64,000 bases of DNA from Acidovorax sp. 69 (GTDB taxonomy: Bacteria > Pseudomonadota > Gammaproteobacteria > Burkholderiales > Burkholderiaceae_C): NCBI RefSeq assembly GCF_002797445.1, contig NZ_PGEP01000001.1, positions 2,480,501-2,544,500 of the forward strand, written 5' to 3'. The notes beneath the pieces were generated by a model, which worked only from the letters and a program-made list of their open reading frames with translations, had not been told where the DNA came from and did no database searches. The position numbers were made by a program, and so were the translations under genes. Shown piece by piece: positions 3,071 to 50,795 of this stretch. The stretch's first letter is position 1, and each line of letters opens with the position of its first letter.

Positions 3071-5158
3071 ATGACCGAGAGTTTGGACCTTTTTTCGGCC
3101 CCTGCGCCCGTGGATAAAGCGCAACCAGCTATCAAAATCAAAGCGCTGCGCGACCAGCTGAACCACTGGGCGCACCAGTATTACGTGCTGGACGAACCCA
3201 CGGTGCCCGACGCCGAATACGACCGCGTGTTCCGTGAATTGCAGGCGCTGGAGGCCGCGCACCCCGGCCTGGTCACCCCTGATTCGCCCACACAACGTGT
3301 GATTGGCGCGGTGATGGAGGGCTTGGCATCGGTGCGCCACGTGGTGCCCATGCTCAGCATCCACACCGAGACCGACACCGAGGCCACGGGCGCCCAGGCG
3401 TTCGATGCCCGTGTGCGGCGTGAACTGGGTCTGTCGGATGCCGACCCCGCGATCGAATATGTGGCCGAGCCCAAGTTCGACGGGCTGGCCATGAGCCTGC
3501 GCTACGAAAACGGCCGCCTGGTGCAGGCCGCCACGCGCGGCGATGGCGAGGTGGGCGAGGACGTGACGCACAACATCCGCACCATCCGGCAGATTCCACT
3601 GACTTTGCCTCAGGGCGTGCCCCCGTTGCTCGAAGTGCGTGGCGAGGTCTACATGCGCCGAGCCGACTTTGATGCGCTCAACGAGCGCCAGCGGGAGCAG
3701 GGCGGCAAGACTTTTGTGAACCCGCGCAATGCCGCCGCAGGTGCCGTGCGCCAACTCGACTCCAGCATCACCGCCCAGCGCCCCCTGAGCTTTTTTGCCT
3801 ATGGCCTGGGCGCCATCACCTTGCCTTCTGACGGTGGCCCGGTGTTCCGCACGCACTACGAAATGCTGCAAACCCTCAAATCATGGGGTTTTCCGGTCGC
3901 AGCGCAGGTGCAGATTGCGGTGGGTGCTGCGGAATTGGTAGCGTTTCACCAGCAGGTGGGCGCCAGCCGTGACGCGCTGCCTTACGACATTGATGGCGTG
4001 GTCTACAAGGTCAACGCGCTGCAGCTGCAGCGCGACCTGGGCTTCAAGACGCGCGAGCCGCGCTGGGCCGTGGCCCACAAATACCCCGCGCAAGAGATGG
4101 CCACCAAGATCGAGGGCATCGACGTGCAGGTGGGCCGCACCGGCAAACTCACGCCCGTGGCGCGTCTGGCACCGGTCTTCGTGGGCGGGGTGACGGTGAC
4201 CAACGCCACGCTGCACAACCTGTTCGAGATTCGCAAGAAGGGGGTGCGCTTTGGCGATACTGTCATCGTGCGCCGCGCAGGCGATGTCATTCCCGAAGTG
4301 GTCGGCGTGATGCCAGGCAACCGCACGGGGTATGTGCCCAACTTCCAGATGCCCAAAGCCTGCCCCGTGTGTGGCAGCGACGTAGTGCGCGAAAAAGGCG
4401 AAGCCAACCACCGCTGCACCGGCGGCCTGTTCTGCGCCGCGCAGCGCAAGGAGGCCATCCTGCACTTTGCCGCACGCCGCGCCATGGACATCGAGGGCCT
4501 GGGTGACAAGCTGGTGGATCAGTTGGTGGACGCGAACGTGATCCGCACGCTGCCCGATCTGTACCGGCTGGGTCTGACCTCGCTCATTGCGCTGGAGCGC
4601 ATGGCCGAGAAATCCGCCCAGAACGTGCTGGCCGCGCTGGAAAAATCCAAGCAGACCACCTTGCCGCGATTCCTGTTCGGCCTGGGCCTGCGCCATGTGG
4701 GCGAGGCCACGGCCAAAGACCTTGCCAAACACTTTGGCACGCTGGACGCCATCATGGACGCCAGCGTGGAGCAGCTGCTGGAGGTGAACGATGTGGGCCC
4801 CGTGGTCGCCCAAAGCCTGCACACATTCTTTGCGCAGCCGCACAACCGCGAAGTGGTGGAGCAGCTGCGTGCCTGCGGCGTGACCTGGCCCGAAGGCGCC
4901 CCGGCCGAACGGGCTCCGCAGATCCTTGCAGGCAAGACCGTGGTGCTGACGGGGACCCTGCCCACGCTGAGCCGCGATGCAGCCAAAGACCTGCTCGAAG
5001 CCGCAGGCGCCAAAGTGGCCGGGTCAGTCAGCAAAAAAACCAGCTATGTGGTGGCCGGCGAGGAGGCCGGCAGCAAGCTGGCCAAGGCCGAGGAGCTGGG
5101 CGTGCCGGTACTCGACGAGGCGGGCATGCTGGAACTGTTGTCGGGTTCGGGTATCTGA
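3071..5158 (+). CDS. ligA: NAD-dependent DNA ligase LigA
   Basis: Seals nicks in duplex DNA using NAD+ in replication and repair. The 695-residue protein has the adenylation motif EPKFDG with the nucleotidyl-acceptor lysine at residue 135, and an OB-fold region. A four-cysteine zinc finger follows at about residues 431-454 (CPVCGSDVV start), then helix-hairpin-helix repeats with the [11 protein letters not shown] motif and a C-terminal BRCT domain (about 618-690). Starts 14 bases after zipA. Odd point: residues about 12-25 ([13 protein letters not shown]) are encoded by a copy of the dispersed palindromic repeat, giving a slightly longer N-terminal leader than usual (the catalytic Lys is 115 in E. 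coli). Confidence 0.98.
3103..3143 (+). repeat. Dispersed palindromic repeat, copy 1 (inside ligA)
   Basis: GCGC, 8-base spacer, AAGCGCAACC, AGCTATCAAAA. Same orientation as ligA and read in the frame that gives Ala-Ile-Lys from GCTATCAAA. It encodes part of the N-terminal leader before the conserved ligase core, where added residues should be tolerated. Left arm is weaker than in other copies. Confidence 0.6.
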
Positions 5159-5278
5159 TGGGCCGTGGCACTCCATGCCTTCGCTCATTGCCCCGTCTCC
5201 ATTCCCTTTCCTTCATGATCTGTCCCCGGTTAGACGGATTGGAAGCGACTCCCTAGCAATTCCCCTGGCGACCTATTG

Positions 5279-50669: not shown

Positions 50670-50744
50670 CCTTGCGCCCCGGACGATGGACGCTAAAGGG
50701 CCCTGGCGCCCTGTCTCGTCTTCGATGGGGTGTTTTATGTAGTT

Positions 50745-50795
50745 TAGGCCGATAGCGCAGGTGCTATGTGCGCCTAAAGCTATCAAATTTATAGT
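50745..50795 (+). repeat. Dispersed palindromic repeat, copy 11 (intergenic)
   Basis: TAGGCCGATAGCGCAG, spacer, TGTGCGCCTAA, AGCTATCAAATTTATAGT. It ends 34 bases before the VOC gene start, in the 159-base gap after pccA, and closely matches copy 2. Confidence 0.87.

Follow-up and report, generated by a model that had tools for sequence, protein, structure and literature searches.

Is a palindromic unit that recurs both between and within housekeeping genes an inserted element, or a DNA signal that has taken shape in place? The question is raised by a 64,000-nucleotide stretch of Acidovorax sp. 69 (assembly GCF_002797445.1, contig NZ_PGEP01000001.1, positions 2,480,501 to 2,544,500; hereafter the window), in which an earlier note described 11 copies of a dispersed element and likened it to miniature inverted-repeat transposable elements (MITEs), repetitive extragenic palindromes (REPs) and Rickettsia palindromic elements (RPEs). 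We show here that the copies represent a DNA-level signal that is constrained by position, nearly restricted to the shared genomic backbone, and different by substitution between genomes in at least three genes. Our leading but tentative reading takes the family as a degenerate signal for DNA recognition, some 68 bp long and present at about 500 sites per genome, and most likely an uptake or self-recognition sequence.

A Dispersed Motif Family of About 68 bp

The motif family is confirmed to be real, dispersed and far more frequent than chance would allow. All 11 copies were found at the positions and on the strands first reported. Aligned on an AGCGC anchor, they run gap-free across 77 columns, and the spacer, previously given as 8-14 bases, is therefore constant in length; likewise, the unit is not 40-50 bp long but extends ungapped over about 68 bp. 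In 86 aligned copies the conserved columns reach from about -23 to +45 relative to the anchor, with a consensus of roughly AATTTTAAGC CAAATnGGCCTCTAGCGCTTnTnnATAAGCGCTAGCAGCTATCAAATTnATAGCAAAT. Positions -12 to -9 of the motif carry an A-rich block in 62 of the 86 copies and a T-rich block in 19, switching en bloc.

At a cutoff of E<=10, a sequence-only covariance model built from the 11 copies, as had been suggested, recovered these copies and no others in the window, the weakest with E 7e-10; since the model was trained on these very copies, the result shows only that the window holds no further sites of near-equal strength. In a shuffle control, also suggested earlier, the window contained 8 occurrences of AGCTATCAAA with at most one mismatch, whereas shuffled versions had 1.2 on average and none of 100 reached 8. 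An Rfam scan of the window gave no match over the gathering score. For quantitative scans we used a refined matrix of 56 columns, obtained in four rounds of training on its own matches, and a 464-kb set composed of the window and 20 sampled 20-kb stretches of the same genome (G000). The matrix detected 62 sites with scores above 15, of which 14 are in the window, adding three weaker sites (18590 on the minus strand, 45208 and 3888 on the plus strand) to the 11. A threshold of 34 was reached by 43 sites in the 400 kb outside the window, which extrapolates to approximately 530, or about 500, sites for the 4.97-Mb chromosome. A scan of the whole genome with the window-built model returned at least 150 matches, the weakest among the matches listed having E 1e-8.

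Chance, or a local AT-rich composition, is a negligible explanation of these counts. The motif is indeed AT-rich; however, three Markov simulations of 464 kb each contained no site over score 8, compared with the 62 real sites, and a control with real sequence, 220 kb from each of two congeners poor in the element (G002 and G031), yielded one weak site above 15 apiece (33.8 and 25.1). Moreover, the site density in G000 climbs with local GC content (Spearman 0.76, p 1e-4, 20 bins), with 3 sites in 100 kb below 60.5% GC versus 40 in 300 kb above it. This trend is the opposite of that expected for an AT-rich motif arising by chance.

Coding Copies Compared with Orthologues

Six of the 11 copies lie in coding sequence, as originally described, and their genes have Pfam support: ligA, pgeF, prmB (a HemK-like methyltransferase domain), dapE, meaB, and pccA. 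A weaker site is located in the methylmalonyl-CoA mutase gene. For pgeF, prmB, dapE, meaB, pccA, and mutase we compared orthologues from congeners that bear the element and from four that are poor in it, or practically free of it (G002, G005, G030, and G031); the element-poor orthologues compared for pccA, mutase and prmB were those of G002, G005, and G031. The pccA segment is 129 nt long in the window, in all three element-poor congeners and in 16 of 17 bearing congeners (135 nt in G032), with motif scores of -19 to 13 in the element-poor congeners against 58 in the window. The mutase segment has 123 nt in the window and in 20 of 20 orthologues, in which the motif scores range from -47 to 49. 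The prmB genes of G005 and G031 have the length of the window gene and score about -50 or lower, and the orthologue in G011 scores 52; prmB of G002 is 12 nt shorter than in the window, and in the bearing congeners G008, G020, and G023 the protein is shorter by 5 residues immediately upstream and the motif is missing. Taken over the three genes, the scores of element-poor orthologues lie between -61 and 13, whereas those of bearing congeners reach 58. Five rows that are not codon multiples were left out of scoring, namely that of G008 for prmB and those of G022, G011, G001, and G035 for dapE.

The suggestion of RPE-like insertion into coding sequence is not supported for these genes: the site-bearing segments of pccA and mutase (three of three congeners) and of prmB (two of three) have the same length in element-free congeners and differ by substitutions. 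The substitutions at orthologous sites of the three genes include synonymous and amino-acid changes. Third-position A/T at the site amounts to 0.05-0.16 in eight of nine element-poor orthologues (0.32 in prmB of G002) and up to 0.68 in bearing ones. Among more distant proteins, PccA differs from alphaproteobacterial structures by only small gaps within the motif segment, and Thermotoga HemK is alignable across most of the prmB motif.

The picture is less clear for dapE: the loops of element-poor congeners fall short by 12-15 nt, except in G002, where the loop is longer by 12 nt. The pgeF loop comprises 33-54 residues in the window and in bearing congeners, except for G015 (30 residues, without the motif), 18 residues in G005 and G031, 27 in G030, and 30 in G002, and E. 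coli YfiH does not have most of it; of the genes compared, pgeF offers the best case for an insertion. The meaB site occupies the same place in 17 of 17 bearing congeners compared, and the element-poor congeners have a different C-terminal end. None of the five genes with orthologues aligned across the site displays a clean 68-bp step. Nor did these genes show a target-site duplication, the intergenic copies not having been surveyed systematically. The alignments proposed for pccA, prmB, dapE and pgeF revealed no inserted unit in the first two and no clean unit in the others, and the coding copies are very probably not insertions.

The family as a whole is unlikely to consist of decayed old insertions of a non-autonomous mobile element of the MITE, REP or RPE kind. 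Such an element would be dispersed in several hundred mostly intergenic copies, as observed; one intergenic case of presence and absence is known, and the pgeF loop is longer than the 18 residues of G005 and G031. Against it stand pccA, mutase, and prmB, for which a mobile element was considered and rejected in the absence of an inserted unit, the position-specific constraint described below, and the meaB site common to all bearing congeners compared. In addition, terminal inverted repeats of MITE type are absent from the 86 aligned copies, in which the two ends differ by eye. REPs and bacterial interspersed mosaic elements (BIMEs) are found at gene ends, with enrichment between convergent genes and several hundred copies. 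The present motif shares these traits with REP/BIME families with REP-associated tyrosine transposases (RAYTs), but it has no stem covariation, its sites differ by substitution, and it is not associated with RAYT: in a search of 21 of the 35 congeners, without G030 and G031, the RAYT domain (PF01797) was present in the element-poor G002 and G005 and was not found in the bearing draft genome G018. A RAYT link was accordingly rejected, and the MITE/REP proposal of the earlier note is not supported by either the same-length orthologues or the RAYT distribution. RPEs are inserted peptides. They resemble the present family in having copies in frame within housekeeping genes; however, PccA, mutase and PrmB contain no extra peptide, and the PgeF and DapE loops are longer than in some homologues.

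For comparison, a MITE-like unit of approximately 166 bp was noticed in G002 (loci L115, L121, L123, L124, and L071), with inverted ends starting CTAGTGTCGCGTCAC. About nine such units occur in 220 kb, six of them with both ends found. This unit looks different from the motif, as its ends are repeated, nearly identical and inverted. It came from a k-mer search for an alternative dialect in the element-poor genomes, an idea that was rejected because the search yielded this unit in G002 and no clear candidate in G031.

Codon Choice, Constraint and the Shared Backbone

The sites within genes bear the mark of codon choice. In 378 predicted genes (362 kb) we found 9 sites with scores above 34, versus a mean of 0.1 and a maximum of 1 in 40 within-gene synonymous shuffles. 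We also calculated the best score attainable by synonymous changes at 681,786 positions of a gene set without pgeF; the top ten positions in sense and the top one in antisense orientation are the eleven observed coding sites with scores above 25. The attainable scores at the observed sites exceed the general tail, and hence amino-acid changes took part. For prmB, the attainable score is 12 in G005 and G031 versus 59 in the window. The matrix was partly built from these coding sites, so both observed and attainable scores are somewhat inflated.

Constraint was assessed in G021 and G033, which are 92% identical over a 20-kb region and of which 220 kb each were compared. Of the 23 G021 sites, 21 were paired with G033 sites by a script. 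One more (A 2222 / B 2168) has an orthologue by our own reading of the block coordinates, and the last, in mutase, has a low score in G033 (14.9). Conversely, the G033 sites 78496 and 87277, among those before position 151,500, have no G021 partner. Within the site pairs, which were selected by the matrix, mismatches amount to 6.9% (39/567) at positions of at least 1 bit, 15.5% (101/651) at positions of 0.4-1 bit, and 21.6% (50/231) at positions below 0.4 bit, compared with 15.6% (330/2,114) in the flanks.

The sites are also nearly confined to DNA that the two genomes share. The centres of 21 of the 23 G021 sites fall within the 120 kb aligned to G033, and the other two are 35 and 65 bp away from a block. 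In the 99.7 kb of G021 DNA that G033 does not share, 73 kb of it in a single stretch, no site is deeper than 65 bp. Similarly, 21 of 24 sites in the first 151 kb of G033 are in aligned DNA and three are within 177 bp of it, and the 30.8 kb of unshared G033 DNA has no site deeper than 177 bp. The 73-kb stretch, at approximately 28-102 kb of the joined region of G021:C1 (L185-L189), is unaligned to G033 and motif-free and is likely a genomic island. Gaps in the motif could thus serve to locate islands in this genus.

Distribution, Dialects and Secondary Structure

Among 35 congeners, 31 have from 64 to at least 79 matches each, and the four element-poor genomes have 0-2 (of the handles used here, G022, G034, and G026 denote A. 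benzenivorans, A. radicis, and A. defluvii, respectively). Genomes of other families (24) gave no match, and within the wider GTDB family matches occur in 69 of 250 genomes and 46 of 141 genera; the search model was built on the dialect of the window, so that other dialects are undercounted. Pattern-scan matches with named records are mostly from Acidovorax, and also from Paenacidovorax, Giesbergeria, Simplicispira, Comamonas, and one metagenome-assembled genome titled Gammaproteobacteria.

Genera differ in a dialect-like way. Applied to samples of three other genera (G074, G178, and G157), the G000 matrix detected 42, 26, and 15 sites, respectively, with a shifted consensus. The G074 consensus reads GCGCTTGccgGnCAAGCGCgAGC; G178 often has CCC on the left and retains GCGC on the right; and in G157 AGCCC occurs together with TGCAC. 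The GCTAT-N7-ATAGC part is stable between genera. At three G178 loci (L173, L175, and L177), two sites in opposite orientation 50 bp apart form inverted repeats, recalling the paired uptake sequences found at terminators.

The palindromic character ascribed to the element is weak. Hairpin 1 has a slight pairing excess in G000 (0.760 vs 0.741 expected, p 0.009), whereas no excess is seen for hairpin 2 or in the three other genera. Covariation is absent in the latter and nowhere convincing in G000, and in the 86 copies the highest mutual information is between adjacent columns and not in any stem pair. An RNA or DNA hairpin as the recognised feature was rejected on these grounds. Furthermore, the left and right arms of G178 sites vary independently, and together with the lack of covariation this indicates that the palindrome is probably not the feature recognised.

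A part of this family has been recorded before. A spaced motif of A. ebreus TPSY, GCTTAT(N)5AAGCG, has 114 copies, 107 of them intergenic (44 convergent, 4 divergent, 59 co-oriented), and was listed in 2017 as a potential novel motif with no function given (excerpt of PMC5217627, including Table 7). It fits the centre and the context of the present unit. In the same excerpt, the report covers the short pair only and not the full unit, the dialects, evolution within genes or constraint, and a second pair, ATAGCT(N)22CAAAAG of Polaromonas naphthalenivorans, did not fit the present motif in spacing in a by-eye comparison. The earlier view of a dispersed Comamonadaceae family is upheld; no account of its function was found, and its short core had been reported. 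The literature searched, mostly open-access, also yielded no account of either the complete motif or an uptake sequence in Acidovorax. Beta-proteobacterial repeat elements (BREs) are likewise dispersed in Bordetella and Comamonadaceae, with some copies within genes; however, they are approximately 90 bp at full length, 64-79% GC in Bordetella and often tandem (excerpt of PMC3110155), and we set them apart by this description.

Gene Context, Orientation and Alternative Functions

Gene context was classified for sites with scores of at least 34, in G000 (54 sites) and in six genome samples (190 sites in all; two of the samples, G021 and G033, have common ancestry). In G000, 42 sites are intergenic, with 19 between convergent genes, 13 tandem antisense, 9 tandem sense, and 1 divergent; of the other 12, 9 lie within genes in sense and 1 in antisense orientation, and 2 are at edges. 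The six samples contain 52 convergent, 42 tandem antisense, 33 tandem sense, and 7 divergent intergenic sites, as well as 34 coding sense, 19 coding antisense, and 3 edge sites. Divergent regions therefore account for 1 of 42 classified intergenic sites in G000 and 7 of 134 in the six samples. The simple gene finder misses genes such as pgeF, whose copy was filed as intergenic, and the coding share is thus underestimated. Among the gene neighbours in G000, 22 of the 32 that are opposed to the motif and 17 of the 28 that share its orientation have their stop codon within 30 bp of the motif edge.

This position at gene ends would suit a signal for transcription termination or RNA 3'-end formation, as would the enrichment between convergent genes, the inverted repeat, and, in phages, a place directly 3' of a gene in 8 of the 11 stretches examined. 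We nevertheless regard such a function as even less probable than a mobile origin. The sites occur in both orientations, both in tandem intergenic DNA and within genes (42 antisense and 33 sense, 34 sense and 19 antisense, respectively), and free orientation in tandem intergenic DNA makes an RNA signal or a directional terminator unlikely. Unlike an intrinsic terminator, the motif has no hairpin with a direct U-tract in the transcribed orientation; its consensus lacks an adjacent U-tract by eye, it shows no convincing covariation, and 3' of pccA in several congeners it follows a separate terminator-like hairpin (by eye).

The main rival to an uptake function is a site bound by a protein that organises the chromosome or its supercoiling (nucleoid-associated or of gyrase type) and favours the ends of genes and the DNA between convergent ones, local DNA structure being under selection. 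Such a site would be compatible with the location next to stop codons and in convergent regions, with the lack of a fixed orientation between tandem genes, with a long motif of alternating AT and GC blocks, and with the constrained positions and near-restriction to the shared backbone. However, the 149 strongest places among the matches listed, which are biased to the window-built model, show no clear replication-strand bias (66 vs 83) and a near-random spacing (coefficient of variation 1.02), and a replication-strand or macrodomain signal was rejected as a candidate. The near absence from 4 of 35 congeners and the existence of dialects would also be odd for a housekeeping role. On balance we consider an architectural site rather unlikely, although less so than the other alternatives. 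Even in this case, a 68-bp signal would have been shaped within genes by codon and residue changes.

A Candidate DNA Uptake Sequence

We favour, as a tentative explanation, a DNA recognition signal involved in uptake. A lineage-specific DNA-binding protein, differing between genera, would recognise the motif in duplex DNA, and the motif would be retained by selection or molecular drive. More specifically, a type IV pilus component may bind the motif as an uptake sequence for natural transformation in Comamonadaceae; fragments bearing it would be taken up and recombined more often than others, and the sites would spread and be kept in the core genome, in parallel with the DNA uptake sequences (DUS) of Neisseria and the uptake signal sequences (USS) of Haemophilus. 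In those systems the sites occur in genes and at gene ends and evolve in place. Several of their defining properties are observed here, including dispersed copies on both strands, coding sites that differ by substitution, scarcity in unshared DNA and clade dialects. DUS of Neisseriaceae and USS of Pasteurellaceae are likewise present as many dispersed sites with clade dialects (excerpt of PMC3630211) and scarce in genomic islands (excerpt of PMC7371117).

To our knowledge, Neisseriaceae and Pasteurellaceae are the only families with established uptake sequences. The same two groups are named in excerpts of PMC4212676 and PMC7811141, and the former gives a length of 9-11 for such sequences. The excerpt of PMC4212676 further reports natural transformation in A. 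temperans, for which transformants were obtained only from own-species DNA, and in A. facilis, and no detected transformation in A. defluvii or A. delafieldii. For Verminephrobacter eiseniae, it presents competition data for selective DNA binding through type IV pili. Sequence-selective transformation has been reported for Acidovorax and Verminephrobacter, with no responsible sequence named in that excerpt, and the present motif is a concrete candidate for it; the A. temperans genome contains at least 150 sites. With a little less confidence still, we propose that Comamonadaceae may possess a third, independent uptake-sequence system, with unusually long sites of approximately 68 bp, genus dialects acting as recombination barriers, and a receptor that would span about six helical turns.

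Several observations weigh against an uptake function. Known uptake sequences have a core of approximately 9-12 bp, compared with about 68 bp for the motif. No receptor was found, and neither ComEC nor the GspH/FimT pilins track the motif: ComEC (PF03772) is encoded in 40 of the 41 site-bearing genomes and also in 21 of the 23 that have no or hardly any sites (61 of 64 in total), and GspH/FimT pilins (PF12019) in 30 of 30 genomes. Loss of competence genes as the cause of motif absence is not supported by the ComEC distribution in site-poor genomes. A. defluvii, reported without detected transformation (excerpt of PMC4212676), also has at least 150 sites, in a record flagged as contaminated, and homology alone may explain the own-species preference of A. 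temperans. A scan of IMG/VR for an exact pattern detected 17 stretches in 13 phage contigs, so phages are not devoid of sites. Four of the 24 intergenic sites of G033 are between divergent genes, and these represent four of the seven such sites overall. Presence of a site is not fixed, as bearing congeners score below 20 in mutase (4 of 17), pccA (2 of 17), and prmB (at least 5 of 15 scored). The sites in pgeF and dapE are in length-variable loops, implying that small insertions or deletions took part. The evidence for non-insertion comes from coding copies and does not extend to the intergenic ones, one of which, at 38055, is absent from G022, which has a 16-bp spacer there (bounds of the 38020 region were obtained in 12 of 20 genomes). 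Finally, the matrix was trained on its own matches.

Dialects together with nearly motif-free congeners offer a natural experiment on the gain and loss of a genome-wide DNA code. The coding sites also call for caution, in that repeats shared inside genes are not necessarily insertions.

Phages and Plasmids

Of the phage stretches, 11 were examined: the motif is just 3' of an opposed gene in eight and inside a long reading frame in three. Seven of the eight genes are of Rha or Bro-N type, with the motif directly 3' and antisense in every case (Rha in L206, L207, L208, L209, and L215; Bro-N in L214 and L219). The arrangement possibly represents a phage gene module that travels with its 3' flank. 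A BLAST search with the consensus returned one weak record in the phage set and nine plasmid records, several of them weak; five of the nine are named for Comamonadaceae genera (Comamonas, Diaphorobacter, Acidovorax, and Rhodoferax). A blastn search of plasmids with the meaB site gave nothing. One weak match (40 bp, 82.5%, E 0.1), which may be due to chance, is in the E. coli plasmid pP11b (L222, 1399-1689), inside a DUF1010 gene between dfrA12 and aadA2 of a class 1 integron.

Sites in the Window

The sites detected in the window are listed in Table 1.

Table 1. Motif sites in the window, with their gene context and score in the refined matrix.
Site	Coordinates	Strand	Location	Matrix score	Remark
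Copy 1	3080..3148	+	N-terminal part of ligA (3071-5158)	44.0	
Copy 2	8169..8237	+	Intergenic	54.0	
Copy 3	10829..10897	+	Within pgeF (10343-11293), length-variable loop	51.8	
Copy 4	21489..21557	-	Within prmB (20814-21749, -)	41.7	
Copy 5	22715..22783	-	Within dapE (21746-22939, -), short variable loop	55.5	
Copy 6	30473..30541	-	Intergenic or gene edge	32.5	Weakest of the 11
Copy 7	35801..35869	+	Intergenic, 3' side of opposed gene	63.8	
Copy 8	38032..38100	+	Between convergent genes, adjoining both stop codons	64.0	
Copy 9	46838..46906	+	C-terminal end of meaB (45872-46897), across stop codon	58.2	
Copy 10	50194..50262	+	Within pccA (48621-50669)	58.0	
Copy 11	50731..50799	+	Intergenic, 3' of pccA	49.3	
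Weak extra	45198..45266	+	Within methylmalonyl-CoA mutase (43707-45875)	29.6	Orthologues score up to 49
Weak extra	18587..18655	-	Intergenic	35.4	
Weak extra	3878..3946	+	Within ligA	27.6	

The window also contains a pair of 164-nt direct repeats (15830-15993 and 27068-27231), 11.2 kb apart and 74% alike, which are unrelated to the motif.

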